Shown piece by piece: positions 3,418 through 57,244 of a stretch of 64,000 bases of DNA. Position 1 is the stretch's first letter. Each line of letters starts with the position of its first letter. Source of the stretch: Haloplanus sp. HW8-1 (GTDB lineage: Archaea > Halobacteriota > Halobacteria > Halobacteriales > Haloferacaceae); the NCBI RefSeq assembly GCF_023703795.1, contig NZ_CP098518.1, positions 1,612,001-1,676,000 of the forward strand, in the 5' to 3' direction. Below the pieces are notes generated by a model. It worked only from the letters and a program-made list of their open reading frames with translations, ran no database searches and had not been told where the DNA came from. A program made the translations under genes and the position numbers.

Positions 3418-6400
3418 GAGACGATCGCATCGACGCACGGAAGGAAGCGAGCCGACTCACCGAACCGGTCGAGGAGGCGGCGAATCTGGCCCGGAAACTC
3501 GGCCTCGGTCCGTATCCGGTCAACTACTGGATCGTCGACCACGACGAGATGAACGAACTCATCGCCTACGGCGGATTCCAGCGACGCTACCCCCACTGGC
3601 GGTGGGGGATGGCCTACGACCGGCAGCGGAAACAGGACCAGTTCGGCATGGGGAAGGCGTTCGAAATCGTCAACAACGACAACCCCGCACACGCCTTCCT
3701 CCAGGAGTCGAACTCGCCCGCCGACCAGAAGGCGGTCATCACGCACGTCGAGGCCCACGCCGACTTCTTCGCCAACAACGAGTGGTTCGGCCTCTTCGGC
3801 GACGGCCAGGGCGACGATCAGTCGGAACTCGACGCCGCGGCCATGCTCGAACGTCACGCCGAGACGATCAAAGGCTACGTCGAGGACCCCGAAATCGACC
3901 GCGACGACGTCGAGCGATTCATCGACGCCGTGCTCTGTCTGGAAGACACTATCGACCAGCACCGCGCGTTCGCCCGCGCCGGCGAACGGCGGGAACGGGA
4001 CGCTCCGGCCGACCTCCGGGAGCGACTGGACGAACTCGACGTCTCGGAGGACGTGCGCCGACAGGCGTTCGACGACGAGTGGCTGGACGACCTCGCCGAG
4101 TCGGAGCAAGCACGGGCGCGTCTGGAAAACCCCCACGCCGACGTACTCGCCTTCCTCCTCGAACACGGCCGGCAGTACGACGAGGAGTCGGGCAAAGCCG
4201 TGGAGTTCGAGCCGTGGCAGAAGGACGTCCTCGACATCCTTCGGACTGAAGCGTACTACTTCGCGGGGCAGAAGATGACGAAGGTGATGAACGAGGGGTG
4301 GGCCTGTGTGGATCCCGAGACGCCGATCTTCACGGAAGCGGGATTGATACCGATGCGCGAGGTCGTCGAGGACCGGACTGCGGTGTCGGACGGCAGCGAC
4401 CGGCGATCGGTGTACGATACGAACGTCATCCCGGATCACGACACCGTCACGATCGAAACCCGCCGGGGGTTCGAGTTGACTGGCTCCGACAACCATCGGA
4501 TTCGGTGCCCCGATGGTTCGTGGGTCGAACTCGGTGACTTAGCGCCCGGTGATGAGATCGAAATCAGCGGCGGTAGCGGCGTCTGGCCGAACCAGTACGC
4601 CGATATCGACTGGGACTCTCCCGAGTGCGTGACCCTCGACGACGTGGCGGATGCGGCCGGCGTCTCGGTGTGGACGGTGATGCGCTACCGGCGCCTCGGT
4701 CGTGCGGAGCAGAGTGACGCCATCGAGCGGGCGCTGGAACGATACGATGGCGCGCCACGGAGCGAAGCAGCGAGCGATCCGATCCGCGTACCCGACGAAG
4801 TGACCGAGGACATCGGACGGTTCCTCGGCTTACTCGTCGGAGATGGGCACGTTTCGACCGCATCGAACCAAGTGGGATTCACCGCGGACACGAAGCCGAA
4901 AGTCGACGAATTCGCCGGACTGGCCGAAGAACTGTTCGGCGTCTCCACGACGGTCAGCGAGGACGGTTCACGGTGGCGCTGTTACGTTTACTCGGCGAAC
5001 CTCGTCCGCCTGCTCACCGACGCGTTCGACGCGACGGCGGGCGCGGCGGACAAAGCGGTTCCCACGAAGATCCGTCGGTCGCCGAAGTCGGTGGTCGCCG
5101 CGTTTCTGCAGGGGTTATTCGACGCCGACGGCTACGCGGGAGATCACGGTGTGATCCTGAGTAGGAAAAGCGAGTCCGTCAGTGAGACGGTCCAGTTACT
5201 GCTGACGAACTTCGGCATCCTCTCCCGGCGACGCGAGCAGACCGACGGCTGCTATCACGTCCACCTGACCGGGGCGTCCGCGAAGCGGTTCGACGAGGAA
5301 ATCGGCTACAGCTACCCGTCGAAAGACGTAGCGCTGAGGACGTATCTGGACGATCTAGAGTGGTTCGAAACGGAACGGTGGACGGACGAAATCGTCGACG
5401 TGTCCACGAGTACGGGCGACGTGTTCGACATCTCGGTCGAGGAGACCCATCGATACGCCGGCGCCGGGTTCGTGAACCACAACTCGTACTGGGAGTCGAC
5501 GATGATGAGCGACGAGGGCTTCGCCGAGGACGACGAGTTCGTCACCTACGCCGACCACATGGCCCGCGTCCTCGGGTCGCCCGGGCTCAACCCCTACAAA
5601 CTCGGGATGGAACTCTGGCAGTACGTCGAGAACGTGACCAACCGCCGCGAAGTGGTCGATCACCTCCTCCGGGTCGAGGGAGTCACTTGGCGGAACTTCC
5701 ACGACGTGATCGACTTCGAGGCCGTCGCCGACCTGCTGGCGCCCGATCCCACCATCGCGACGATCACCCCCGAGACGCTCGACGCCCTCGATCCGGCCGA
5801 TCCGCGGGTGGACGCCGCGGCGCTGGATCGGGCGCTGGACGGCGAAATCGACGTGACGCGCTACCCGTGGAAGGTGCTCACGACCGCGGGACTGGCCGAG
5901 CGACACTTCTCGCTGTGCAAACCCCAGAACCGGGGGTTCCTGCGGCGCATCCGGCGCTCGGAAGTCGAACGGCTGTCGCGGTACATGTTCGACGACGCGA
6001 AGTACGACTCGGTGGCCGACGCGCTCGCCGACGTGGACTACACGGCTGGCTGGACGCGAATGCGCGAACTCCGGGAGAGTCACAACGACGTGACCTTCAT
6101 CGACGCGTTCCTCTCCGAGGAGTTCGTGACCGAGAACGACTACTTCACCTACGAGTTCTCACAGGCGACCGGCGACTTCCGTGTCGCCTCGGAGGATCCC
6201 GAGGACATAAAGAAGAAACTCCTCCTGCAGTTCACCAACTTCGGGAAGCCGACCGTCGCCGTCTACGACGGCAACTTCGACAACCGGAACGAACTACTCC
6301 TGGGTCACCAGTACAACGGCATCGACCTCGATGTCGAACAGGCAAAGCGCGTACTCGAACGCACCTACGACCTCTGGGGGCGGCCGGTCAATCTCATGAC

Positions 6401-6599
6401 CATCGTCAAGGAGTACGACGAGCACGAACTGGAGATCGCACGGCGACGAAACCGGGAGCCGACGCCCAGCGAAGTCGGCAAGCGCATCCGGTACGACGGC
6501 GAGCAGTTCGGGATCCACGACCTTGATCCGGATCTCGAAGAGCGGATCGCCGCCGCCGACATCGACTACGACACGAAGCCTGCGGACTGGCTGAACTAA
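3414..6599 (+). CDS. spoVR: SpoVR family protein, interrupted by an intein
   Basis: This gene encodes a SpoVR/YcgB-family protein. The ATG at 3414 overlaps the DUF444 stop; the frame is open further upstream but that part reads the neighbour. The 1061-residue precursor splits into an N-extein (residues 1-297), a 393-residue intein (298-690) and a C-extein from Ser691. Removing the intein leaves about 668 residues, a normal SpoVR length, and restores the conserved family stretch MNEGWA-SYWES. The insertion therefore sits in the most conserved motif of the protein. Function of SpoVR is not well defined; in bacteria it is linked to spore cortex or stress responses together with PrkA and DUF444. 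The stop overlaps the stop of the convergent neighbour. Confidence 0.93.
4305..5483 (+). mobile_element. Intein with LAGLIDADG homing endonuclease inside SpoVR
   Basis: The intein runs from Cys1 (CVDPETPIF, typical N-terminal splicing block) to the C-terminal VNHN, followed by Ser as +1 extein residue, so all splice-junction residues are present. A block-B-like motif GSDNH lies at intein residues 60-64 and a block-F-like segment at about 362-393. Two LAGLIDADG helices are intact: [14 protein letters not shown] at about 170-183 and [17 protein letters not shown] at about 263-279. Between splicing block B and the first helix, residues about 108-132 look like a helix-turn-helix. With 393 residues it is full-sized, not a mini-intein, and appears competent for splicing and homing. 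Confidence 0.93.
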
Positions 6600-7180
6600 T
6601 CCGCGTCGCCGAGGACATCGATGGACGTCCCGCCCCCGATCCGGCCACGGCGCACGAGATACGAGTTGACGACGGCGACGACGGCAAAGAGCACGACGAT
6701 CACGCCGGCGACGGCCAGATCCGGCAGCGAAGAGAAGGGAAACACGTCCAGCCACGTCGCCACGAGAAAGAGCAGGGCCGTCGCCGAGAGGCCGAGATAG
6801 AGATCGGGCCACGGAACGCCGCGGTCGCCGACATCCGCCAGATACACGTCGAGTTCGGACGCCCGATCGGCCAGGGTGATCGTTCCCCGATCCCGGTCGT
6901 ATTCGACGATCCCGGCCTCGTCGAGTTTCGGCAGGTGCGTCTGGTGAAGCGACGTGTACACCCGCTTGCGCTGTTTGTAATCGAGGTCGGCCACCGTCAC
7001 GTCGTTCTCCCAGGCGGCGATCCGCTCGGCGAGGTCGCGGAGTTCCACCGTCTCGGAGTTCCGGTGAAGAACGGAGAGCACGTACCGCCGACGCTGATTG
7101 CTCAGTATCGAGAAGACGGTGTCTTTGGACAGCCGCTCGGGCTGTGAGCGTTCACGTTCCGGGTGTTCTTGTGCGGCCAT
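6596..7180 (-). CDS. HTH transcriptional regulator with two C-terminal membrane helices (DUF7344-like)
   Basis: A 194-aa haloarchaeal protein with an N-terminal winged-helix domain (SKDTVFSILSNQRRRYVLSV and following, ending in a wing around EAGIVEYDRDRGTITL) followed by two hydrophobic helices near the C-terminus. This layout is that of the DUF7344-type membrane-tethered regulators frequent in Halobacteria. I chose the ATG at 7180 (MAAQEHPERER) because the 29 residues upstream are arginine/serine-rich without family likeness. Its stop overlaps that of spoVR convergently. Targets are unknown. Confidence 0.8.
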   Translation of the reverse strand: MAAQEHPERERSQPERLSKDTVFSILSNQRRRYVLSVLHRNSETVELRDLAERIAAWENDVTVADLDYKQRKRVYTSLHQTHLPKLDEAGIVEYDRDRGTITLADRASELDVYLADVGDRGVPWPDLYLGLSATALLFLVATWLDVFPFSSLPDLAVAGVIVVLFAVVAVVNSYLVRRGRIGGGTSIDVLGDAD

Positions 7181-7425
7181 GTTGGGATTCGAGAGACGAT
7201 CGAGCGAACGTCGGCAGTCGGACGACCTTGCGGACGCACGCAAGGACACGGTCGGTCCCGACCGCAATCACGTACGCCCTACCGTTCGTTCCGTAGATAA
7301 AGCCACCCCTTGACTATCAGCAGTGACAATCGACGCGACCACCCGCTCGGAGACGTCTCGGGACGGACGGAATCCGGAGTTTCGTCCCGGTTGCCGACCC
7401 TTGCGAGGCCCGCTCGGCTCACGTG
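7181..7425. other. Intergenic, no gene seen
   Basis: No coding frame with haloarchaeal codon use is seen here. A weak TATA-like stretch (GTAGATAAAG near 7302) could serve either side. The stretch leads into the tRNA-derived repeats described next. Confidence 0.5.
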
Positions 7426-41838: not shown

Positions 41839-41847
41839 TGACATCCT

Positions 41848-41867
41848 CCTCGCCGTAAACGGCGAGG
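41848..41867 (-). ncRNA. Right-end hairpin / likely omega-RNA scaffold end of tnpB element
   Basis: Eight-base-pair perfect stem with TAAA/TTTA loop at the end of the tnpB element. By analogy with known TnpB systems the transcript from tnpB through this hairpin would carry the guide; sequence just past 41838 (target DNA) would act as guide. The RNA itself is inferred. Confidence 0.45.
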
Positions 41868-42772
41868 CTTCCCGTGCCGCAGGTGGGATATTTGCTGGTC
41901 TACGACACGACCTGTTCTCTCGTGTGAAACGTCCCGCTCTCGCGGTCGAACAGGTATGTCGATGGCTGTGCCACACAGCCGTTACTCCTATCCTCACCGT
42001 GAGGACTCGGAGTTATCTTCTGACGCATATTCTCCGCCCCGTTACAATCCGCGTTGGCTACCAACTCACACGACGAGCAGACGTACAAGCCACGCTCGAC
42101 ACGGTTCGATTTCGTGTCGTCTCCACAGCGTGAACACGTTTTCGAGGTGTTCCACTCGTTCTCTTTCAGTACCTCAACACCCCGCATCTCGCCTTTGTAT
42201 TCGAGGTACTGGTAGATGCGGTCGAATGCCCACGAGTGTAACTTCTTGTTGCCGGTTTTACCCCAGTCTGACGCTCGCACGTCTTCAGGCCAACTCACCG
42301 CGAGCGTACCGACACCGCGTTCGACACACTCCGTGATGATGGCGTCCGTCAGCGTGTGGTAGAAGTGTGTCTCAAGTTCGGAGAGTTTCCGACGCGCCCA
42401 CATCGACTTCTCTGACGGGCCGTTCTCTCCCTCGGTGTCGTACTCAGCTCTGGTGAAGTAGTGTTTGTCTTCTTTGAGCGAGTTGCCGGGGTACAGGACG
42501 TATTCGTCCGGGAACGCGACCGTGGAAATATTTGTAATTCCGAGGTCGATCCCCGCAACACCGTCGTCTGCTGTGTCAGCAGATTCGAGCTCGACGTTAC
42601 AGACGAAGTGGATTTCCCATTCGTCACCGTTCCAGACGGTACGAACATTCTGGACGCTGTTGACTTCCGAGAGATCAACATCAGGTCGAGTCTGGTACTC
42701 ACAGAGCAGGAAATCCGAGAAGTGTTCTTTCAGATTCGAGCCCTTCGAGAGCCGGACCCGGTTGTTCTCATA

Positions 42773-43890
42773 GTGTCTAGGGAAATGTTTTACCTACAGA
42801 GACACTGAAGTTGGTAATGGGTCGGCTCGACGACATCACCCTCGAAGAACTCTATGAGCTAAAGGATCAAATCGACGAAGGGAAGCCGCGAGAACGTGTT
42901 CTCGCGGCGATCGGGCGCAAGCAGGGCGATCAACTGGATGCACTTGCTGACCGCCACGGTGTTGTCGAGAAGACGATTCGCAACTGGCTCGATCGGTTCG
43001 AGGAAGAACCGATCGAGCAGGCACCTTACGATGCTCCTCGGCCGGGAGGGCCAGCAAAAATCGAGGGCGAAGACCGTGAGCAACTGTTTGAACAGTTGCA
43101 ACAGCCGCCGACCGAACTTGGCTACGACCAGCAAGCGTGGTCAGCGAAACTCTTGCTTCATCACGCCAAAGAGGAATACGGCGTCGAATACCACGAAACC
43201 TACGCGTACGACTTATTGAAAGAGGCCGGGCTGTCCCTGCGGACAGCACGGCCTCAACATCACGAAGCCGACCCTGAAGAGAAAGCTGAGTTTCAAGAGA
43301 CAGTCGAAAAAAACGACCCGAACTGACCGAGAAAACCGTCGTTGTTGTCGATCAATTCACCAAGCACGTTGGAACCGTTCAACGACGTGGCTTCTACCCG
43401 ATTGGCTCAAATCCGACAATAGAGGTTGCAACGTCGTGGAAGTCGGTGACAGTGCTGGGCGCTGTCACCGACGACGGTGACAGCTTCTTCTGCTGGACCG
43501 AAGAGAACCTCACGCGGCACCACGGGATTCGGCTGTTAGAGGCGTTGACAGAGCAGTTCGGTGAAAAGTTAGTGGTGTTTTTGGACCGAGCGGGCTACTT
43601 CTGGGCACGGGATCTCTGGGAGCACGTGAGTGGTGAGCGCGAGACCGAAACTGTCGGAGACAGTTCGGTCTCGTGCGTACGCGGGGAGGATCTCGAAGTG
43701 TGGTACTTCCCGTCAAAAATCCCCGAACTGAACGCCGTCGAAGGCTGTTGGGACCAGTTGCAGGAGTGGTTCAAGTACCGACTCGTTCCTGATCTCTCGA
43801 CGCTGAAAGACTACATCTCACGAGGAGTGAACGCAATCAGCGAACCCAGCATTTGGCCGTATCTTACAGGTAAAGATTCGAACTAATCAC
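42773..43890 (+). mobile_element. IS630-family insertion sequence inside tnpB
   Basis: A 1118-bp element flanked by TA on both sides (42771-42772 and 43891-43892), the IS630/Tc1 target-duplication signature. Imperfect terminal inverted repeats: left GTGTCTAGGGAAATGTTTTA, right (complement) GTGATTAGTTCGAATCTTTA, both followed by CC and a weaker match. It holds one transposase gene in two frames. Its insertion splits tnpB. Confidence 0.75.
42817..43886 (+). CDS. IS630-family transposase made by -1 frameshift
   Basis: The first frame (ATG 42817 to TGA 43324-43326) has the HTH part: LDDITLEELYELKDQIDEGK, DALADRHGVVEKTIRNWLDRF and HHAKEEYGVEYHETYAYDLLKEAGLSLR. The second frame starts after a slippery A-AAA-AAC at 43308-43314 in correct zero-frame phase; a -1 shift there reads RPELTEKTVVVVDQFTKH and runs to 43886. 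The second part holds the DDE residues: Asp in VVVVDQ, Asp in VFLDRAGYF, Glu in PELNAVEGCWDQL. Total length about 356 aa. The canonical slippery site and otherwise intact frames favour programmed frameshifting over decay. Confidence 0.72.
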
Positions 43891-46106: not shown

Positions 46107-46529
46107 ATGGACGTTCGCCGCTGGACGCCGTTGACGTTCGTGGCGCCCGCCCGGTACGTCGACCGTGACGACTTTTGGCGATCCTTCGACCTCGAGTCGT
46201 GGTCCCAGTCGGAGTACGTCTGGACGCAGGACGAGTGGAACGGCTTCCTTGATCTGGCCAGATATCCACGCGACTGCGTCGAGAGCGGGCGCGGTGACTG
46301 CGAGGATTACGCGCTCGTTGCGCTCTCCTGGGCCGTTGCACACGACCGTAACGGAATCGGAATCGGGTTCTGCTGGAGACCACCGTACCCCTGGCCACGG
46401 CACGTGATCGCGTACGACGAGGAGCGCGTGTACTCGTCGGGCACGATCCGCGAGGCGAGCGTCGACGAGTGGAAGGCCGATTCGGAATATCGGTTCGTTC
46501 TCAGGCGACGCGTGACCGTCTCGCCGTGA
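46107..46529 (+). CDS. Small transglutaminase/cysteine-protease-like (BTLCP-type) protein
   Basis: A 140-aa protein with CVESGRGDCEDYALVALSWAVAHDRN, the Cys motif of bacterial transglutaminase-like cysteine proteinases (GDCEDYA), and RHVIAYDEERVY, which offers the His; an Asp/Glu further on may complete the triad. There is no signal peptide or membrane helix. Substrate unknown. It stands alone between the palindrome and a small membrane protein. The family assignment rests on the motif and His order, not on a search. Confidence 0.55.
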   Translation: MDVRRWTPLTFVAPARYVDRDDFWRSFDLESWSQSEYVWTQDEWNGFLDLARYPRDCVESGRGDCEDYALVALSWAVAHDRNGIGIGFCWRPPYPWPRHVIAYDEERVYSSGTIREASVDEWKADSEYRFVLRRRVTVSP

Positions 46530-47514: not shown

Positions 47515-48000
47515 ATGAGTTCGATAAACCTCTGGGATTTCATTCACATCCCGTTCGACGCCGTCCGATACGGCTACCGGCAGTTCCGGAAGGCACTGTT
47601 CACGGCACCACGGCCGTCTGGAGAGTACCTCGTCGTGGATCAGTCCGTCTCGGAGATCGAAGCGGAGCTGGGTGGGTACAGTTTCGCGCCCAACTGGGAG
47701 TTCTCCTACTACGAGCGCGGCGAGGTCCTGAACCTCGCCCGGGTCATCTACGAACGTAATACGGTCGACGGGACGAGGTACGACTGGTGGCAGACGCACC
47801 TTCGTGGCTGGCGCAACGACTCGGGGCGGATCGAACTCCACGCCCACTGGGAACTCGAACCCACCGAGAACGGCAACGCCCACATCGACGGCACCGGATT
47901 CGACTTCGACCGTGGCATGACCACATTACAGTCGTTCCTCGAGGAAGCCGGAATCGAGTACGAGCGAACGACCATCGAAACTGGGGAGTCCCACGAGTGA
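47515..48000 (+). CDS. Hypothetical protein
   Basis: A 161-aa acidic soluble protein: an N-terminal helix (INLWDFIHIPFDAVRYGYRQFRKALF) and then a beta-rich part with many aromatic residues (FAPNWEFSYYERGEVLNLARVIYERN, DWWQTHLRGWRNDSGRIELHAHWELEPTE). No family recognised. Codon use is like the chromosome. It stands between a membrane protein and the small ORF/GMC pair, on the same strand. Confidence 0.62.
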   Translation: MSSINLWDFIHIPFDAVRYGYRQFRKALFTAPRPSGEYLVVDQSVSEIEAELGGYSFAPNWEFSYYERGEVLNLARVIYERNTVDGTRYDWWQTHLRGWRNDSGRIELHAHWELEPTENGNAHIDGTGFDFDRGMTTLQSFLEEAGIEYERTTIETGESHE

Positions 48001-48132: not shown

Positions 48133-48231
48133 ATGGACAGAACATCCTCGAAAACGGGAGGGAAACGAACAGGGCGACCAAGAGACGGTCGGCCGGTATG
48201 GGGCCAAATCGGGGATCACGATGGTCGCTGA
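48133..48231 (+). CDS. Possible 32-aa leader ORF overlapping the GMC gene start
   Basis: The frame begins ATG 48133 behind GAGGTGAT (48121-48128), an eight-base match to the 16S rRNA 3' end, which is the best ribosome-binding site in this part of the window. It encodes a basic peptide (MDRTSSKTGGKRTGRPRDGR and more) and ends TGA 48229-48231, overlapping the GMC start (48221) by 11 nt. The GMC ATG itself has no such site, so the ORF may couple translation. No homology is claimed. Confidence 0.45.
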   Translation: MDRTSSKTGGKRTGRPRDGRPVWGQIGDHDGR

Positions 48232-49930
48232 CAGCTACGATGCCGTGGTGGTTGGCGCGGGGGGTGATGGCCCGGTGGCGGCCTGGAAGTTGGCCGAGGT
48301 GGGATTGTCGGTACTGATCCTGGAGGCAGGCCCCTTCCACGGCAACGAGAAGTGGCCAAACCCCCACGAGGAGCCCGGCGGTGAGGCCTCCGCCAGCGTC
48401 GAGGATCTGAGCGGCGACCTCCTCGACGAACAGTTCACCACCCGCGAGTTCGAGATGCTGAACGAACTGCTGTTCGGGCCGGCCGACCACGAGCGGGGGT
48501 TCTGGTTCCGGAAATTTCCGGGTGACGGGGCGATCCTCCAGTGTGCCGGTGTCGGCGGCACCACGCTGCACTACCTCGGCAACCACCCCCGTGCGTACCC
48601 GGCGTCGATCGACGAGCAGGGCCACTGGCCCATCGACTACGCCGACCTCATCCCCTACTACAAAGAGGTCGAAGCGATGTGCGATGTCGCTCCCGCGCCC
48701 CAGACCGCCAAAGAGGAACTGTTCGTCCGCGGGGCCGAGGCGGCGGGGTGGGACCTGCTCGACGACAGGAACGTAACCGAACCCGGCTACCGTCCCCAGC
48801 CCAACGCGATCAAGCAACCCGACGAGCGCCTCCACGTCGACGCCGACTACGACGGCGACTTCACCTCCCCCGACATCAAGGGCGACACCCTCGCACTCGG
48901 CAACATCACGGGTAACCCCCACCCGCGGGGCGCACCGTTCGAGGAGAAGGCCAAACGCGCGAGCAACGTCAGCTTCGTTCCGCCAGCTCTCGAGACGGGT
49001 AATGTGACCGTTCGGCCCAACGCTTTCGTGACCGATGTCACGACCGAGACTGCCCTCGGCGACTCCCCGACCGTGACCGGCGTCGAGTTCCGCGACACGT
49101 GGTCGGGGGCCGAGGAGTCGGTGTCGGCCGATGTGGTCGTCCTCGCGGCAGGGGCGGTCGAGACGCCGCGGCTCTGGCTCAACTCCGACCTCCCGGCGAA
49201 CGACTGGGTCGGCCGCGGGATGACAATCCACCTCCCGGACAGCGTGATGGGTCTGTGGGACGACGACGACCTAGAGGAGTCCATCGGCAAGCCGACCGTC
49301 GACCAGCATCACGGACAGGACAGCGCTGTCCGGTTCGACTATCCCGGCGTCGGCATGTTCCAGCCGATAACCGCAGGCCCGGGCATCGGGGCGTTTCTGG
49401 GTTTCGGCGCCAGCGCCTCGGGGTTCGCCTTCCAGAACGATCCCGCCGAGGCCCCCTGGGACACGATGGGGCGCCTGGCCGGGCGGGAACTCAAAGAAAT
49501 CCTCGCCGACTATCGACGGATGCTCCCGCTGTTCATCCTGACGGACGATCGGCCCCACAAGCGCAACGGCATCTCAGTCGCACCCGGGATCGCGGACGAA
49601 CACGGACCGGTCGCCCAGGTCAACTTCGAGCCGAGCGAGGGCGACCGGCTGCGGCGGGACGACCTCGCCGAGATTGCCGCCGAGATCCTCCGGGAGGCAG
49701 GCGCCTCCTACGTCCACCGCTCGGACTCCCCCCCGACGGCGATCCACATCCAGAGCACGATGGCGATGGGGAAGGTCGTCGACGAGGCCTGCGAGGCCTA
49801 CGACGTCGACCGGCTGTTCGTCGCCGACCATTCGGCGCTCGCCAACGGGATCGGCGGGCCGAACCCGACGAACACGGGCCAAGCGCTCGCCGCCCGGACG
49901 GGGGAGAGGATCGTGGAACGATACTTCTGA
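48221..49930 (+). CDS. GMC-family oxidoreductase, copy 1 (altered active-site motif)
   Basis: A 569-aa FAD-dependent GMC oxidoreductase. The dinucleotide-binding motif is GAGGDGP at residues 12-18 followed by ILEAGP. The GGTTLHY segment and the C-terminal FVADHSALANGIGGPNPTNTGQALAAR fit the family. In the C-terminal domain the motif reads HIQSTMAMG, where copy 2 has HVHSTMRMG; a His and an Arg are lost, so its activity may differ. It has no adjacent small subunit. It shares long stretches of near-identical DNA with copy 2 at 54444. Substrate unknown; family members oxidise alcohols, sugars or sterols. Confidence 0.88.
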   Translation: MVADSYDAVVVGAGGDGPVAAWKLAEVGLSVLILEAGPFHGNEKWPNPHEEPGGEASASVEDLSGDLLDEQFTTREFEMLNELLFGPADHERGFWFRKFPGDGAILQCAGVGGTTLHYLGNHPRAYPASIDEQGHWPIDYADLIPYYKEVEAMCDVAPAPQTAKEELFVRGAEAAGWDLLDDRNVTEPGYRPQPNAIKQPDERLHVDADYDGDFTSPDIKGDTLALGNITGNPHPRGAPFEEKAKRASNVSFVPPALETGNVTVRPNAFVTDVTTETALGDSPTVTGVEFRDTWSGAEESVSADVVVLAAGAVETPRLWLNSDLPANDWVGRGMTIHLPDSVMGLWDDDDLEESIGKPTVDQHHGQDSAVRFDYPGVGMFQPITAGPGIGAFLGFGASASGFAFQNDPAEAPWDTMGRLAGRELKEILADYRRMLPLFILTDDRPHKRNGISVAPGIADEHGPVAQVNFEPSEGDRLRRDDLAEIAAEILREAGASYVHRSDSPPTAIHIQSTMAMGKVVDEACEAYDVDRLFVADHSALANGIGGPNPTNTGQALAARTGERIVERYF

Positions 49931-49931
49931 C

Positions 49932-50435
49932 CTATCGCCGTCGCGTGAGCAGTCCCCACGCGAGTCGCGGCAGGTAGGGAACCACGGTGAGGGAGGTGAA
50001 CCCGAGTTGCTTCGCGATCTTCAGTATGGGCGGATAGACCCGGTGTTCTTCGATCATACCGTCAGCGACCTCGATCTGTCCCATATACCGAACCTCGACC
50101 CGCCGTCCGGTCGGCGGGACTCCGAAGAACGTCCCCTCGTGAGTCATCCTCAATCGCCCGTCGTACATCACCGCGTCGTCCTCGGAGAGCATCCTGTGGA
50201 CCGTCACCTGAAAGTCGGGGAAGCCCGCCACGACGCCCCGGATGAACGTCTCTAAGCCGTCGCGGCCGTGGATTTCGTCCCAGGTCCCGGAGACGTCCGC
50301 CGCGAGTGCTGCCGGATCGTACATCACGAACGACTCAGAGACCAGAGACCGGATCTCGTCGTATCCGCGCTCGTTCCAGACGGACTCCAGGTAGTCGCGT
50401 GCGACACGTTCGGATTCGGATGGCGCGTGTTCCAT
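49932..50435 (-). CDS. SnoaL-like ester cyclase / NTF2-fold protein
   Basis: A 167-aa protein of the SnoaL polyketide-cyclase-like NTF2 group: ARDYLESVWNERGYDEIRSLVSESFVMYDP, IHGRDGLETFIRGVVAGFPDFQVTVHRML and a C-terminal MGQIEVADGMIEEHRVYPP. ATG 50435 (MEHAPSESER) is used because residues upstream are not family-like. Such proteins catalyse small ring or isomerisation reactions or only bind hydrophobic ligands. It ends 1 bp from the GMC copy 1 stop, convergent. TTTTTATCAC near 50491 may be its TATA box. Confidence 0.8.
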   Translation of the reverse strand: MEHAPSESERVARDYLESVWNERGYDEIRSLVSESFVMYDPAALAADVSGTWDEIHGRDGLETFIRGVVAGFPDFQVTVHRMLSEDDAVMYDGRLRMTHEGTFFGVPPTGRRVEVRYMGQIEVADGMIEEHRVYPPILKIAKQLGFTSLTVVPYLPRLAWGLLTRRR

Positions 50436-50521
50436 GCCTCGTCCCGATCGACGACGGCCGGTCAGATAGCTGTACATGTGGTCTGTCGGACCTATTTTTA
50501 TCACGTCACCGTAGCCCGCGT

Positions 50522-50900
50522 ATAGAGTACTTCGTCACGGGCGCGACGGGGTTCATCAGGACTCACCTCGTCGAGCAACTGGTGTCCGAGGGCCACGACA
50601 TCGTGGCGTTGACGCGTCCCGATCGAACGCGGCTCACCTCCCGGAGACCGTGACGGTCGTCGAGGGTGACCTCACGGACAAGGAGAGCATGCGCGGGGCG
50701 ATGGAGGGCGTCGACGGCGTGTTCCACGCCGGCGCCTGGTTCTACGTTGGCCCGGGTGCGGAGCAAGCCGAGGTAGCTCGGCGCGTGAACGTCGAGGGGA
50801 GCCGCAACGTCTTCGAGCTGATGGACGAACTCGACGTTCCGAAGGGTGTCTACACCAGCACGGTCGGCGTTCACCCGGGCACGAGCGGGGCGCGCTCGCC
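50522..50900 (+). pseudogene. Decayed SDR-family (epimerase-like) gene
   Basis: The reading EYFVTGATGFIRTHLVEQLVSEGHDIVALTRPDR, then in another frame HLPETVTVVEGDLTDKESM...DGVFHAGAWFYVGPG...ARRVNVEGSRNVFELMDEL, is an extended SDR/NAD-dependent epimerase. The start codon position reads ATA instead of ATG, the second glycine position of the GxxGxxG motif reads Arg (GFIR), a frameshift lies near 50630, and the sequence ends after YTSTVGVHPGTSG near residue 125. It is clearly inactive. Confidence 0.75.
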
Positions 50901-50942
50901 CCGTCCGGGCGACGACCGTCCGTTCTCGCCGACACCGGCGGC

Positions 50943-50950
50943 AGCTTTAC
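50943..50950 (+). promoter_or_regulatory. TATA box of the 50975 gene
   Basis: AGCTTTAC is centred about 28 bp before ATG 50975, fitting a leaderless transcript. It lies just past the end of the SDR remnant. Confidence 0.5.
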
Positions 50951-50974
50951 CTCCCGCCCCGTCGTCGTGCCGAC

Positions 50975-51373
50975 ATGGTCACAGGGGGGACCACGCGATA
51001 CACGCCCCACGCACTCGTGTCGGCGGTCGTGTTCGAGTACATGCACATCGCGGACGAACTGGCCGGGAACTGGGCCCCCTTCGAGCCGTTCAACGACCCG
51101 CTGGTGGCCACGGTCGGCGTGGGGGTCTTCACGCTCGTCGCGCTCGCGGGGCTGTGGGGCGTCGCCGCCGACCGTCGTGTTGGGTACGCCCTCGCCGCCG
51201 GATTCGGCCTCTTCTTCCTGGTCGTGGAGTGTTGGCACTACGTCGATCCGGCGAACATGACCGCTCTCCGGTGGATCGTCCTGTGGCTCGCGCAGGGCTC
51301 GGGCGCGGGCGTCGGCATCCTCGGTGTGATCCACCTCCGGGGCGGGGATACCGAGGCGTCTCACTCGGGGTAG
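50975..51373 (+). CDS. Hypothetical small membrane protein
   Basis: A 132-aa protein with about four helices: ALVSAVVFEYMHIADEL, VATVGVGVFTLVALAGLWGV, GYALAAGFGLFFLVVECWHYV and RWIVLWLAQGSGAGVGILGVI. His and Glu residues lie in helix 1 (FEYMHIADE) and helix 3 (VECWHY), so metal or heme binding is conceivable. No family recognised. Its end overlaps the convergent VOC gene by 13 nt. Confidence 0.62.
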   Translation: MVTGGTTRYTPHALVSAVVFEYMHIADELAGNWAPFEPFNDPLVATVGVGVFTLVALAGLWGVAADRRVGYALAAGFGLFFLVVECWHYVDPANMTALRWIVLWLAQGSGAGVGILGVIHLRGGDTEASHSG

Positions 51374-52020
51374 ACCCCGTCGGGCGACGGGACCGCCCAG
51401 AGGTTCGCCGCGATCTCGAGGAGTACGCCGTCGAGTTCCTCACGCATATCGAGGTACCAGAACTTGAGCCCCTCGAAGCGCCCGCTCTGGACGACTTGGA
51501 TGCCCGCGTCCTCGTAGCGCTCGACGGCGGCGCGCGGGTCGTCGAAGGCGAAGCAGCCGATGTGGTGGATGCCCGTGCCGCCGGCGTCGAGGTGTTCCGT
51601 GTACGTACTCGGCCCGTCGAGCGGTTCGATCAACTCGACGTTCAGCCCTGGGACCCCCGGGTTCGGGAACGACGACAGCACCTCGCCGCCGTCCGATCCG
51701 GGTCGCAGTCCGAGCCGGTCGCGCAACGCCGTGAGCCAGCCAACGACCCGCTGTAGCGTCCCCCCGGAGACGACCGTCGTCGTCAGGTCGACCGGTCCGC
51801 CGACGTCCGTCACCGCCACCCGCATCGAGTACTCCGCCGGCTCCCCGCGGTAGGTCGCGTCGGTCAGGCGCGGTGGCTCGTAGCGGTACGTAACCCACGG
51901 CTCCATCCCGAAGAGGGCCCCGAACCGGCGCATGCTCTCTTCAAGGTCATCGACGACGAACGCGACGTGGGAGACCTCCGGGAGCGCCACATCCACCTGC
52001 GGAATCGCGCTGTCGGTCAT
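51361..52020 (-). CDS. VOC-family (glyoxalase/dioxygenase fold) protein
   Basis: A 219-aa protein with two beta-alpha-beta units of the vicinal-oxygen-chelate fold: VSHVAFVVDDLEESMRRFGALFGMEPW at the start and GIHHIGCFAFDDPRAAVERYEDAGIQVVQSGRF in the second half, with ELIEPLDGPSTYTEHLD between. His residues in SHVAFVV and HHIGCF with GLNVELIE and LLEIA supply candidate metal ligands. Likely an enzyme of small-molecule breakdown, substrate unknown. Neighbouring genes (GMC, SnoaL-like) suggest one catabolic theme. Confidence 0.82.
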   Translation of the reverse strand: MTDSAIPQVDVALPEVSHVAFVVDDLEESMRRFGALFGMEPWVTYRYEPPRLTDATYRGEPAEYSMRVAVTDVGGPVDLTTTVVSGGTLQRVVGWLTALRDRLGLRPGSDGGEVLSSFPNPGVPGLNVELIEPLDGPSTYTEHLDAGGTGIHHIGCFAFDDPRAAVERYEDAGIQVVQSGRFEGLKFWYLDMREELDGVLLEIAANLWAVPSPDGVYPE

Positions 52021-52059
52021 GGGAGTAGCTTCGGCGGAGCCGAAAAATAACTCGGGGGG

Positions 52060-53004
52060 TCACGCCTCGCTGATCGGTTCGTCGCGGGCGTTCATGACGT
52101 AGTAGAGACACAGCCGCTCGTCGCCGGCCTCCGTCTCGGCGTGGAGGTGGCCCAGCGAGCCCTCTTCGGGGGACGGGAGGAGCTGAGTCTCGGTCTGGCA
52201 GTACTTCCCGATCATAAACTCCGTCTCGATCTGGCGGATCTCGTCGTGCCAGTTCGAGAAGTCGAACATCTCCATGCGGTCCTCGTCGAAGTCGAGGCGG
52301 ACATCGCCGCCCGCCGTGTCGAGCACCTCGTACTTCCCGTCGACGCCGTGCTCGGTCCGCTCGAACTGGAACTCGAAGAGCGGGTCCGACAGCCCGGCGT
52401 TCGAGACGAGCTGTACGTCCCACGCCCCGTCGAGCGCTTCGGGATCGGGGACCGAGCCCTGATTCCAGAGCACGGCGTGGTCGGCCGGGGCGAGAAAGTC
52501 GAAGCCGTACCGGCGCGTCAGCCCGAACGTCAGCGTCTCGATCCCGTACGGGAACCGGCCGAGGTAGGCCTTGCCGACGACCAGGTCGTCGGTCACCGGG
52601 AGCAGGAGGTCGTAGAACGGGCGATACACGAGGTCTGTGTACGTGAGCAGGGCGTACGGCCGGCCGTTATGCTCGACTTCGCGGAGCCGGTTGTGTCCCA
52701 CGACCACCTCGTCCGCGTCGGTGGTCTCGCCGACCAGCGAGCCGTTCTCCCACCAGAAGCGCTTGTGGAACCCCGCGGGGAGCGGGGCGAACTGGTTCAG
52801 GTACGTGAAGGTGTGGTCGGTCGGGAAGAACCCCCGCCAGTGTTCGTCGTTCGCCACCTCCCGTTCGTCGACGGCGACCTCCCTCCCCCCCTCGTTGACC
52901 AGCGTCTTCATCGGGCCGGGATCGGCGTCGTGGAAGAGCTCGTCGAGTTCCGCGCGGGTGCTGTTCCTCGGATCGGTCTCGAACGTGTCGATGGATGCAC
53001 TCAT
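52060..53004 (-). CDS. Hypothetical protein, probable ligand-binding beta fold
   Basis: A 314-aa acidic protein without signal peptide or membrane helix. Two similar aromatic-rich beta halves are suggested (FPTDHTFTYLNQFAPLPAGFHKRFWWENGSLVGE and GVDGKYEVLDTAGGDVRLDFDEDRMEMFDFSNW), ending HAETEAGDERLCLYYVMNARDE. I do not recognise the family. ATG 53004 was chosen because upstream residues look like noncoding translation. Its neighbours are the VOC gene (same strand, 39 bp) and a small membrane protein, so it may share a transcript with the VOC gene. Confidence 0.68.
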   Translation of the reverse strand: MSASIDTFETDPRNSTRAELDELFHDADPGPMKTLVNEGGREVAVDEREVANDEHWRGFFPTDHTFTYLNQFAPLPAGFHKRFWWENGSLVGETTDADEVVVGHNRLREVEHNGRPYALLTYTDLVYRPFYDLLLPVTDDLVVGKAYLGRFPYGIETLTFGLTRRYGFDFLAPADHAVLWNQGSVPDPEALDGAWDVQLVSNAGLSDPLFEFQFERTEHGVDGKYEVLDTAGGDVRLDFDEDRMEMFDFSNWHDEIRQIETEFMIGKYCQTETQLLPSPEEGSLGHLHAETEAGDERLCLYYVMNARDEPISEA

Positions 53005-53081
53005 GCCGTGACACCGCCCCGCACAGGCCGCTTCCGACGGCTCCCCCACCGGCGACCGCGGAGGATCGTGCCCCTCTACGG

Positions 53082-53399
53082 TCACCGGTACCGCTCCCCG
53101 ATGTTGAGCCCCAACCGCATCCAGAGCGGATAGGACGCGAACAACACTACGGCGAGGACATCGGTTCCCGGTTGCCGGGACAGTTCCGTGTCGAGCCCCG
53201 AGTTCAACATCCAGTCCGAGCCGCTCATCCACCCTCCCAACCACCACGGGAGGACATCGAGGTACAGCAGCGTGCTCACGACGACGAACACGGCGACGAC
53301 GCCCGCCGCGAGTCGATTGCGACGCGACCGAGCGTCAATGTACCGGTCGATGGTAACGCCGATGAGCACGAGCGCGGGAGGATCCAACAGGAAGCTCAT
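53082..53399 (-). CDS. Hypothetical small membrane protein
   Basis: A 105-aa protein with three hydrophobic stretches: FLLDPPALVLIGVTID, LAAGVVAVFVVVSTLLYLDVLPWWLGGW and DVLAVVLFASYPLWMRLGLNIG. The second is followed by a loop rich in Trp and Ser. No family recognised. It lies on the same strand as the 314-aa protein with a 77-bp gap. Confidence 0.55.
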   Translation of the reverse strand: MSFLLDPPALVLIGVTIDRYIDARSRRNRLAAGVVAVFVVVSTLLYLDVLPWWLGGWMSGSDWMLNSGLDTELSRQPGTDVLAVVLFASYPLWMRLGLNIGERYR

Positions 53400-53507
53400 A
53401 GCCTATGCGCAGTGTTCACAATACACGCAGCATTGAAATAGGTTCCCCACCCTCGATAGCCGCCCGCTACCGGCCGTATCGTGATCGATCCTCGTATCGC
53501 AGTAACA

Positions 53508-53518
53508 TTTTTTAAACA
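53508..53518 (+). promoter_or_regulatory. TATA box of the subunit-3/GMC operon
   Basis: TTTTTTAAACA lies about 19-29 bp before ATG 53537, so the transcript should be leaderless. It is the strongest TATA in this region and drives the two-gene operon that follows. Confidence 0.55.
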
Positions 53519-53536
53519 TTAGTGTAACTCGGTCAT

Positions 53537-54442
53537 ATGGTAACCGATGGCGTGATACGGCGGCCCATACAATGGCTGGCGTTCGCGTGGCGGGGCCTGC
53601 AGTCCGTCGGCGGGTGGGTTCTCGAGGCGTTGGGGATCGGCCCGGATGTCGACCCGCACACGAGGGTGACGTTCCGGGCCATTGTGGACGCGGTGGTCCC
53701 CGAGACCCCCGAGCTGGCCGATGAGTTGGGGCCCGAGTACGCTCCCGGGGGACTGGCCATCGGTCTCGACGAGTTCGCCATCACCTACATCGACGACGGC
53801 TTCCAGTTCGGACTCCCCGATCTCGGCCCCCAGGGGAACATCGAACTGGCCGATCCGATCGCGCACACGCTCGACGCGGCGGCGTTGAAGCTACTGGAGC
53901 AGGGAGACAACGAGGCTGACCCCAGCACGGACCGGGCGCTGTCGCTGCTCGGCCCGGACGACCCGCCGCCGGATGAGGCAAGAAGCGCCGTGGGACCGTT
54001 CGCGGAGCTATCCCGGGAGGACCGGCTCCGCGCCATCGCCATCCTCGACGAGTTCGAGATCAAGGTGACGCCGACGGACCACGACCTGTTCGAGATGGAC
54101 GCCGGTCTCGTCGGCCAACTCGTTATCGGGTTCGTGGAGATGATCTACTACAGCGAGTGGGAGGGGTACGACGACTTCACCGAGCCGCCCAGTGAGCGGG
54201 TCCACCCGAACGATCCGAGGGCGGTCCAGAGCTGGCGACAGACCGGCTTCCCGGGGTTCGCGAACGGGTACGCGGCGCTGCGTGGCTACGTCGGCGCGGA
54301 CGATAGCCCCCTCGGCGAGGGCGAGGAGTGGACGACCGTCGACGAGGGGTCGGGGGTTCGGATCGTCCACGGGTCGGGTTCGTTCCGGGAGAACGACTAC
54401 GACACGAGCGACTACGAGGAACCCTTGCCCGTGGAGGACTGA
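53537..54442 (+). CDS. Gluconate 2-dehydrogenase subunit 3-like protein
   Basis: A 301-aa member of the gluconate-2-dehydrogenase subunit-3 family, small partners of membrane-linked GMC flavoproteins. Typical parts are TFRAIVDAVVPETPEL near residue 46, LSREDRLRAIAILDEFE, GLVGQLVIGFVEMIYYSEWEGYDDF and WRQTGFPGFANGYAALRGY. No clear Tat signal is seen; the N-terminus has one amphipathic stretch (IQWLAFAWRGLQSVGGWVLEAL). It ends 1 bp before the GMC copy 2 gene, so the two products likely form a complex. Confidence 0.83.
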   Translation: MVTDGVIRRPIQWLAFAWRGLQSVGGWVLEALGIGPDVDPHTRVTFRAIVDAVVPETPELADELGPEYAPGGLAIGLDEFAITYIDDGFQFGLPDLGPQGNIELADPIAHTLDAAALKLLEQGDNEADPSTDRALSLLGPDDPPPDEARSAVGPFAELSREDRLRAIAILDEFEIKVTPTDHDLFEMDAGLVGQLVIGFVEMIYYSEWEGYDDFTEPPSERVHPNDPRAVQSWRQTGFPGFANGYAALRGYVGADDSPLGEGEEWTTVDEGSGVRIVHGSGSFRENDYDTSDYEEPLPVED

Positions 54443-54443
54443 G

Positions 54444-56156
54444 ATGGTCGCTGACAGCTACGACGCCGTGGTGGTTGGCGCGGGGGGTGATGGCCCGGTG
54501 GCGGCTTGGAAGTTGGCCGAGGTGGGATTGTCGGTACTGATCCTGGAGGCAGGCCCCTTCCACGGCAACGAGAAGTGGCCAAATCCCCACGAGGAGCCCG
54601 GCGGCGAGGCCTCCTCCAGCGTCGAGGATCTGAGCGGCGACCTCCTCGACGAACAGTTCACCACCCGCGAGTTCGAGATGATCAACAACCTCGTCTTCGG
54701 GCCGGCCGACCACGAGCGGGGGTTCTGGTTCCGGAAGTTCCCGGGAGACGGGGCGATCCTCCAGTGTGCCGGTGTCGGCGGCACCACGCTGCACTACACC
54801 GGCTGTCATCCTCGTGCGTACCCGGCGTCGATCGACGAGCAGGGCCACTGGCCCATCGACTACGCCGACCTCATCCCCTACTACAAAGAGGTCGAAGCGA
54901 TGTGCGAGGTGACCCCCGCGCCCGTCACGGCGAAAGAGCAACTGTTCTTCCGGGGTGCCGAGGCCGCGGGGTGGGAGCTGATCGAGGACCTGAACGTCAC
55001 CGAGGCGGGCTACCGACCCCAGCCGAACGCGATCAGACAGCCGGACCCGAAACTCCACGTTGACGAGGGATACGCCGGCGACTTCACCTATCCCGATGTC
55101 GAGGGCGACACGCTCGCGCTCGGCAACATCGCCGGCAACCCTCACCCGCGGGGCGCACCGTTCGAGGAGAAGGCCAAACGCGCGAGCAACGTCAGCTTCG
55201 TTCCGCCAGCTCTCGAGACGGGTAATGTGACCGTTCGGCCCAACGCTTTCGTGACCGATGTCACGACCGAGACTGCCCTCGGCGACTCCCCGACCGTGAC
55301 CGGCGTCGAGTTCCGCGACACGTGGTCCGGAACCACCGAAACCGTCGACGCCGAAGTCGTGATTCTTGCGGCGGGCGCGATCGAGACGCCGCGGCTCTGG
55401 CTCAACTCCGACCTCCCGGCGAACGACTGGGTCGGCCGCGGCCTGACCATCCACTTCGGGGACAACATCATGGGCCTGTGGGACGCCGACGACCTCACGG
55501 AGCCGCTGGGAAAGGAGACAATCGACCAGCACGAAGGCCAGGACATCGCGGCACGCTTCGATTATCCAGGTGTGGGTATGCTCCAGACCATCGGGACCGC
55601 GCCGGGGATTGGAGCGATTTTGGGCTTCGGCGCCAGCGCCTCGGGGTTCGCCTTCCAGAACGATCCCGCCGAGGCCCCCTGGGACACGATGGGGCGGCTC
55701 AGGGGTGCCGAACTGAAGCGTCTCCTCTCGGACTACCGTCGGATGCTCCAGGTGCTCGTCGTGACCGACGACCGCCCCCACAAGCGCAACGGCATCTCGG
55801 TCGCGCCCGGAATCGCGGACGAACACGGACCGATCCCGATCGTGAACTACGAGCCGAGCGAGGGCGACCGGCGCCGCCGGGACGAACTCGCCGAGATCGC
55901 CGCCGAGATTCTCCGAGAGGCCGGCGCTTCCCACGTCCACCGCTCGGACTCCCCGCCGACCGCTCTCCACGTCCACAGCACGATGCGGATGGGACAAGTC
56001 GTCGACGAGGCCTGCGAGGCCTACGACGTCGACCGGCTGTTCGTCGCCGACCATTCTGCGCTCGCCAACGGCGTCGGGGGCGCAAACCCGACCAACACGG
56101 GGCAGGCCCTCGCTGCCCGGACGGCCGACGAGATCAACAAACGGTACTTTCAGTGA
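54444..56156 (+). CDS. GMC-family oxidoreductase, copy 2
   Basis: A 570-aa FAD-dependent GMC oxidoreductase, catalytic partner of the subunit-3 protein encoded just upstream. FAD motif GAGGDGP at residues 12-18, GGTTLHY, and the C-terminal HVHSTMRMG with GGANPTNTGQALAAR are all present, so the active-site His region is intact, unlike copy 1. Electrons would go to a membrane acceptor, as in gluconate dehydrogenase, but no cytochrome subunit gene is next to it. Parts of the gene are identical in DNA to copy 1 over long stretches. Confidence 0.88.
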   Translation: MVADSYDAVVVGAGGDGPVAAWKLAEVGLSVLILEAGPFHGNEKWPNPHEEPGGEASSSVEDLSGDLLDEQFTTREFEMINNLVFGPADHERGFWFRKFPGDGAILQCAGVGGTTLHYTGCHPRAYPASIDEQGHWPIDYADLIPYYKEVEAMCEVTPAPVTAKEQLFFRGAEAAGWELIEDLNVTEAGYRPQPNAIRQPDPKLHVDEGYAGDFTYPDVEGDTLALGNIAGNPHPRGAPFEEKAKRASNVSFVPPALETGNVTVRPNAFVTDVTTETALGDSPTVTGVEFRDTWSGTTETVDAEVVILAAGAIETPRLWLNSDLPANDWVGRGLTIHFGDNIMGLWDADDLTEPLGKETIDQHEGQDIAARFDYPGVGMLQTIGTAPGIGAILGFGASASGFAFQNDPAEAPWDTMGRLRGAELKRLLSDYRRMLQVLVVTDDRPHKRNGISVAPGIADEHGPIPIVNYEPSEGDRRRRDELAEIAAEILREAGASHVHRSDSPPTALHVHSTMRMGQVVDEACEAYDVDRLFVADHSALANGVGGANPTNTGQALAARTADEINKRYFQ

Positions 56157-56460
56157 CTTCTCCCACGACTAAAGTCGTGGGGTCCCTCACTGAGGGTTAG
56201 GCCCACGTCGTCTGGAGAGTTCGCAGGTTCCATCTCACGGTTGGATCCCTGGAGTACGACCTGCGTTTCGGGCTGAGCCACACCAGCCCCCGCCATCGAT
56301 AGCGGGCTCTGAATGTGCTTACCGACGGCTCGTTTGCCGATGTTCGACGCCCCGTTCTTGTCTGCGTTGTCGTCCAGTCCACAGTCGTGACACTCCAGAC
56401 GCCCCTGCACCTCACGACTCGTGTTCTGCGACCCCCACCGCCAGCACGTCACGGACGTGT
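56150..56460 (-). pseudogene. tnpB: C-terminal fragment of a tnpB gene with its end hairpin
   Basis: Minus-strand reading TSREVQGRLECHDCGLDDNADKNGASNIGKRAVGK is the zinc-ribbon second half and the last RuvC Asp (DNADKNGA) of a TnpB. The first CxxC reads CWRW, with the second Cys lost. The frame ends TAG just past the hairpin CCCACGAC-TAAA-GTCGTGGG (56162-56181). Everything upstream of the zinc ribbon is missing. It belongs to a different TnpB subgroup from the 42-44 kb gene. Confidence 0.75.
56162..56181 (-). ncRNA. Right-end hairpin of the tnpB fragment
   Basis: Perfect 8-bp stem around TAAA/TTTA at the end of the tnpB remnant, directly after the GMC copy 2 stop. In living elements this is the 3' part of the guide RNA scaffold. 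Here it may also serve as a terminator for the GMC operon. Confidence 0.4.
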
Positions 56461-56464
56461 CGTA

Positions 56465-57244
56465 CCCGGCTACTACAGCGCCCTCAACCACCACGGGCTG
56501 ACCGAACAGGTCCCCCGGACGGTGTACGTCGTTACGCCGACCCGAGCGCAAAGCCGGGAGATCCACGGCGTCCCGTACCGCGTCACGACAGTCACCGAGC
56601 GGAAATTCTTCGGCGTTGAGCCGACATCGATCGAGGGCACGACCGTTCAGGTCAGCGACCTGGAGAAGACGCTGGTCGACTGTGCGGACCACCCCGAGTT
56701 CTGTGGTGGTCTTCGGGAACTCGCGACTGCGATGCGTACCGCCGCCGACCGTAATTGCGACTGGGACACCGTCGGCGAATACCTCGAGCGACTCGGCAAC
56801 GGCGCTGCGACCAAACGAATCGCCTACCTCGCCGACCAACTCGGCATCGACCTCCTTCGCTTTGCGAGCGGGCCGACGCCGGACGGCCTCGCCATATACG
56901 AACTCGACGCCGACGGTACCGGTTCCGCACCCGACACGCCGGCCGACGATCCGACGGGCGGCGAGGCGGTGATCCTCGAACACACGGGCAGCGGGGAGCT
57001 GCCGATCGACGGCTACGAAGTCGCCTACGACGGACGGGCGGAGACGATCACGAGCGGGGGCCGGGAGCCGCTGTCGGCCCTGGCTCCCGGCGATCACCTC
57101 GTCGTCTACACCGGCGACGGCCTCCGCTCCGACCCGGGCGTCCGAACGGTCGCGTTCGGCCTCGACGTGGCGCTCATCCACGACGACGGGACGGTCACCG
57201 TCCGGACTCCGACCGGCGAGGTGAGCGCGTTCGCGGAACGCTGA
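56465..57244 (+). pseudogene. AbiEi-type antitoxin remnant running on into a lamin-tail-like domain
   Basis: From about 56470 the frame reads GYYSALNHHGLTEQVPRTVYVVTP, TTVTERKFFGVEPTSIEGTTVQVSDLEKTLVDCADHPEFCGGLRELATAMRTAA and KRIAYLADQLGID, the C-terminal part of an AbiEi-like (viral-defence type IV antitoxin) protein. Its N-terminal HTH is gone, replaced by the antisense of the tnpB fragment. After about residue 137 of this segment the sequence becomes EAVILEHTGSGELPIDGYEVAYDG...LAPGDHLVVYTGDGLRSD...IHDDGTVTVRTPTGEV, which resembles a lamin-tail domain. The frame has an ATG at 56315 inside antisense tnpB. Probably two gene ends joined by deletion. Confidence 0.6.

Follow-up and report, generated by a model that had tools for sequence, protein, structure and literature searches.

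Gene content of the locus

The window, a 64,000-nucleotide stretch of the Haloplanus sp. HW8-1 genome (G000:C1:1612001-1676000), carries an island bounded by two paralogous genes for FAD-dependent GMC oxidoreductases. GMC1 (48221..49930, + strand; 569 aa; PF00732/PF05199) stands at one end and GMC2 (54444..56156, +; 570 aa) at the other, and the PF00732/PF05199 matches of both, which pass the cut-off, have E values of 1e-10 to 1e-13. GMC2 lies directly 3′ of SU3 (53537..54442, +), its putative small partner subunit. Between GMC1 and SU3 we find a SnoaL-like protein of the NTF2/ketosteroid-isomerase fold (49932..50435, −; PF07366, E 2e-24), the start of which was moved from 50504 to the ATG that agrees with the homologue in L094 (hence the end coordinate 50435), an SDR pseudogene (50522..50892, +; PF01073/PF01370 on the remnant), the small hydrophobic membrane protein MP (50975..51373, +; 132 aa; a weak DUF2127-like match below cut-off), a VOC-superfamily protein (51361..52020, −; PF13669, E 3e-18), the 314-aa protein U314 (52060..53004, −) and TM105 (53082..53399, −), a 105-aa membrane protein with an MSFxxDPP motif. 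A preliminary description made from the sequence had named two GMC oxidoreductases, a SnoaL-like protein and a VOC protein, all borne out by Pfam matches, as well as an SDR remnant, of which an N-terminal piece is confirmed (PF01073, E 2e-10). TM105 and MP had been overlooked and belong to the set.

The SDR gene is doubly broken in this strain, by a frameshift near 50645 and by a deletion of ~0.6 kb at ~50892-50924 relative to the Halorubrum contig L087 (blastn boundary). Its initiator codon is ATA and the C-terminal two thirds are missing; an intact counterpart of 334 aa is found at L087:4105-5109.

The surroundings bear marks of rearrangement and of mobile elements. A TnpB-type C-terminal remnant (PF07282; 56153-56500, −) lies directly past GMC2, a transposase-type HTH lies at 42817-43326, and a low-GC stretch is found upstream. 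TG140 (46107-46529, with a DCEDYAL stretch) and U161 (47515-48000) are both on one side of the island here and on opposite sides of the SU3-GMC locus in several genomes, which indicates a local rearrangement in this strain.

Conservation and distribution of the island

The cluster is real and inherited. The order GMC1-MP-VOC-U314-TM105-SU3-GMC2 is kept whole in G009, which represents a different genus of the same family; SnoaL and SDR are absent there. Contig L087 of Halorubrum sp. CBA1125, which seems to be one and the same as G279:C124, carries SDR-MP-VOC-U314-TM105-SU3-GMC2. One Haloarculaceae MAG has U314-TM105-SU3 on two contigs; next comes a GMC fragment of 149 codons in L088, and GMC1 and SnoaL in L089. 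G271 keeps the order, with SnoaL present and SDR absent, and its SU3 gene has a frameshift while U314 and VOC are cut short. MP is conserved in G009, L087 and G271, and SnoaL homologues are present in L094 and L089. Since the SDR gene is broken in this strain and missing from G009 and G271, and G009 lacks SnoaL as well, neither can be a core step; an SDR step would have been lost in this strain.

Purifying selection is evident from dN/dS estimates of 0.14-0.39 (window against L087) and 0.09-0.56 (window against G009), well below 1 in each intact gene tested. U314 is rare: 4 of the 170 genomes of the family have it, and wider sampling found it in 2 of 194 genomes at the level of the class and in 2 of 392 at that of the order. 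All four U314-bearing genomes of the family fall within the 22 of 170 that have SU3 (hypergeometric P = 2e-4). The preliminary description had left room for chance neighbours, to be recognized by a lack of co-occurrence outside this strain; U314 is found with GMC/SU3 genes in G009, L087 and other loci, in an order conserved across genera. It had also proposed an oxidative catabolic cluster with no obvious known pathway. The oxidative part stands, on the two GMC oxidoreductases and the conserved cluster, the catabolic part is plausible and unproven, and no description of such a cluster was found in the literature searched.

The SU3-GMC pair

Every haloarchaeal locus inspected has SU3 immediately upstream of a GMC gene. 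Among plasmids, five records have SU3, and these five, and no others, carry the GMC group of the cluster. SU3 and GMC2 are shown to be an old haloarchaeal two-gene unit, of which we found no account in a literature search. Because of this position directly upstream of the GMC gene in the loci checked, SU3 probably acts like a hitchhiker subunit of the GMC enzyme.

In an alignment of 21 GMC sequences the glycines of the FAD-binding motif (G12/G14/G17), H509 and N548 are invariant. H509 and N548 align with His476 and Asn519 of the Burkholderia FAD glucose dehydrogenase, and the nearly invariant H117 aligns with His105; in that enzyme His476 and Asn519 are catalytic and His105 links the FAD (PMC6719666). 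The gamma-alpha complex of Burkholderia cepacia (PMC6719666) resembles the pair further in joining a GMC catalytic subunit to a small partner, and its Tat-type export has a parallel in the apparent Tat signals of SU3 relatives. It differs in having 3Fe-4S cysteines, a multihaem cytochrome subunit and a Tat motif that window SU3 lacks, and its small subunit is unrelated to SU3 or very remote from it. The 21 GMC sequences have no invariant Cys and no Cys cluster at the loop that corresponds to the 3Fe-4S site.

SU3 had been described as a gluconate-dehydrogenase-type subunit 3, an assignment that we do not uphold. SU3 has no PF13618 match, alone or through its homologues, and when its profile was set against genuine PF13618 proteins of haloarchaea with hhalign the probability was 2%, a value compatible with remote homology. 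SU3 and its homologues match no other Pfam family and no NCBIfam family, and the SU3 profile has no match in the PDB. An AlphaFold model of SU3 built from a 4-row alignment (mean pLDDT 31.2) was too poor for a fold search. Two genuine PF13618 genes exist elsewhere in the same genome, each near a GMC match. Such haloarchaeal PF13618-GMC pairs (e.g., G000:C1 at 573.4 kb) also combine a GMC oxidoreductase with a small Tat-type subunit, but these small subunits are not detectably related to SU3 by profile comparison, and the GMC match consists of short segments. The label gluconate dehydrogenase subunit 3, given by analogy, therefore fails for this haloarchaeal GMC group, the small subunit of which is a separate family.

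As read by eye, SU3 relatives from other families and from plasmids have a twin-arginine N-terminus that is absent in the clade of the window, an apparent change from an exported to a cytoplasmic enzyme. The Tat signal is seen on the homologues in L067, L069, L070-L077 and L083-L086, and a non-Tat N-terminus within the family of the window.

Distant SU3-GMC pairs have an IclR regulator and an adenylate-forming enzyme of the acyl-CoA-ligase type as neighbors, in plasmids of Halorientalis, Haladaptatus and Halomarina and in three further genomes. This context, which lies outside the present cluster, hints at degradation from alcohol to acid to CoA ester and is the sole pathway clue for the SU3-GMC pair itself.

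GMC1 and GMC2 paralogues and the VOC protein

GMC1 copies from four loci (the window and three others) form one clade with 100/100 support. The GMC2 side of the tree is less resolved, and GMC2 of the window does not group with the other GMC2 copies. There are 22 fixed differences between GMC1 and GMC2, several of them close to the catalytic motif, and at these sites six single-copy relatives mostly have the GMC2 residue. Between GMC1 and GMC2 of one genome dS is 0.29-0.37, which is below the values of 0.73-0.80 obtained for orthologues. Low within-genome dS together with fixed differences is as expected of gene conversion with selection keeping the differing residues, and the two enzymes look like specificity variants for two related substrates.

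The VOC protein has an insertion at approximately residues 76-127 that is absent from most haloarchaeal relatives. Its nearest relatives lie in E1/E2 2-oxoacid-dehydrogenase operons (four of five loci inspected), and in L078, L079, L081 and L082 the PF13669 protein is conserved with E1 alpha/beta, an ATP-NAD-kinase-like protein and E2 (acetoin-type). Overall identity to these proteins is ~40-45%, and they have the PF13669 domain in common with the VOC protein of the island, although they lack the ~50-residue insertion and belong to another operon context. That context, again outside this cluster, is a hint of catabolism of alcohols and ketones.

The U314 and TM105 families

Neither U314 nor TM105 belongs to a catalogued family. 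Members of the U314 alignment gave no convincing match in Pfam or NCBIfam, as the preliminary description had anticipated in calling the 314-aa protein unrecognised, and U314 of the island has no match in PHROGs; TM105 has no convincing Pfam family, and the copy in the window has no NCBIfam match. The U314 domain is ~290 aa long, with N37, W56-x-G58-F59, G78-F79-x-K81, W195 and I256-R257 invariant in an alignment of 13 sequences. The best PDB profile match of U314, an S-layer protein (E 0.0045 over ~95 residues), was judged due to chance, and the AlphaFold model of U314 (mean pLDDT 37.5, from a 3-row alignment) was too poor for a fold search. Neither U314 nor the methanogen U314 domain was found in plasmids, and U314 was not found in viral contigs.

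In a phylum-wide search U314 appeared in G442 as the C-terminal portion of a GMC oxidoreductase of 839 aa, and a second U314-GMC fusion, of 845 aa, was found in G633. U314 is present in 9 of 238 genomes of the class of G442, and mcrA (methyl-coenzyme M reductase alpha) is present in all seven of these nine that were tested. The G442 fusion has as its neighbor a protein of 740 aa with a TM105 homologue at its start and DUF362 coming next, and at other loci of mcrA-bearing genomes U314 lies beside TM105-DUF362 proteins. L135 and L136 have the order TM105, DUF362, U314, DUF362, with ~50% (U314) and ~60% (TM105) identity to the proteins of the window; in L135, from an mcrA-bearing genome, the two DUF362 genes that flank U314 and the adjoining TM105 span 4339-7390. 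TM105 is adjacent to U314, or one gene away, in all inspected loci but L137, the locus of the G633 fusion, where no TM105 was found in the stretch.

The fusions in L124 and L137 share with the window the U314 domain and the GMC catalytic motifs, and in L124 also the adjoining TM105 homologue. They differ in being a single polypeptide and in a GMC part of another, remote subfamily (162 residues aligned at 26% identity) with a Cys-rich motif, CGLCHLGC. U314 and TM105 make up a module found in archaea in the company of GMC oxidoreductases or DUF362 proteins. The fusion and the repeated adjacency are good evidence of U314 and TM105 working together with GMC-type enzymes. For the orphan U314 a known class of enzymes thereby becomes a partner open to testing, the fusion in distant archaea indicating what it works with.

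Besides the distance between the GMC subfamilies, two observations qualify this partnership. Most GMC/SU3 loci are without U314, so it is not needed for the GMC/SU3 enzyme. Stand-alone U314 in mcrA-bearing archaea usually lies with DUF362 and has no adjacent GMC gene, so that its partner may be something other than GMC; DUF362 may be an alternative partner. A literature search found no function for DUF362 in methanogens.

A putative membrane-associated alcohol-oxidising system

We give roughly even odds to the island being a membrane-associated flavin alcohol-oxidising system in which U314-TM105 is the partner module and GMC1 and GMC2 act on related alcohols, a reading, the best of those considered, based on gene content and sequence comparison. 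SU3-GMC would be a flavin alcohol dehydrogenase with SU3 as assembly or escort subunit of the GMC protein. U314 would bind the substrate or the GMC surface, as in substrate presentation, and TM105 would serve to dock the complex on the membrane, the place of electron transfer to a quinone or a small redox protein. GMC1 and GMC2 would oxidise related alcohols with differing specificity, and the VOC protein, plus SnoaL and SDR where present, would act on the ketones or aldehydes produced. More tentatively, U314-TM105 could be an undescribed module of archaeal redox complexes that lets flavin alcohol oxidases and, independently of them, DUF362 proteins use a membrane-borne or hydrophobic substrate, common to haloarchaea and methane-metabolising archaea through gene transfer. 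We consider this possible and rather less probable than not; if the module does serve such substrates, it would represent new archaeal redox biochemistry common to aerobes and strict anaerobes.

The membrane partners found in both groups could also point away from catabolism, to the biosynthesis or repair of a membrane isoprenoid, quinone or lipid, in which case the association with DUF362 and with polytopic domains in archaea would reflect lipid modification. DUF362 is in the same Pfam clan as the LarA racemase family (PMC11770544), and some mcrA-bearing archaea fuse TM105 and DUF362 to a further hydrophobic domain. The patchy distribution of U314 (4/170, 2/392 and 9/238 genomes) is not what an essential lipid or quinone would suggest, however, and the acyl-CoA-ligase/IclR context of relatives suggests catabolism; we regard this explanation as rather unlikely. 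Unlikely, too, is the remnant of a steroid or terpenoid-ring pathway, in which a cholesterol-oxidase-like GMC and a 3beta-HSD-like SDR would oxidise a ring alcohol, SnoaL would shift the double bond and VOC would act downstream. The SDR does match PF01073 3Beta_HSD and the HpnA/SdmB models, SnoaL a ketosteroid-isomerase-related model, and the fused GMC scores below cut-off against a cholesterol-oxidase model, but all NCBIfam matches are far under the curated cut-offs and the folds are generic. Moreover, G009 does without SDR and SnoaL, the cluster shows no gene for steroid-ring cleavage, and a literature search on this pathway found nothing.

Quite improbable, in our judgment, is a canonical direct-electron-transfer sugar dehydrogenase complex (gluconate, fructose or glucose dehydrogenase). 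FAD glucose dehydrogenase and the fructose dehydrogenase large subunit are the best sequence matches among solved structures, the small subunit gene is directly upstream, and relatives have a Tat signal. Yet the GMC proteins are without 3Fe-4S cysteines, SU3 is not PF13618, no cytochrome c gene is among the scanned cluster genes, and the true PF13618-GMC pairs sit elsewhere in this genome. That mobile elements brought chance neighbors together, as might be read from the TnpB remnant, the transposase-type HTH, the low-GC stretch and the flanking U161 and TG140, rearranged relative to other genomes, is very improbable for the island as a whole. Different genera share the order of the genes, which are under purifying selection; GMC1 is inherited together with U314; and archaea that are only distantly related show the links of U314 to TM105 and to GMC again. 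For GMC1-VOC-U314-TM105-SU3-GMC2 a chance origin is already refuted; for SnoaL and SDR it may hold.

Finally, two further features of the window lie outside the island. A match to the sRNA family sot0042 is located at 41847-42018, and the ORF at 56315-57244 (+) matches the C-terminal domain of the AbiEi antitoxin, with a weak match to a lamin-tail domain at its C-terminal end.
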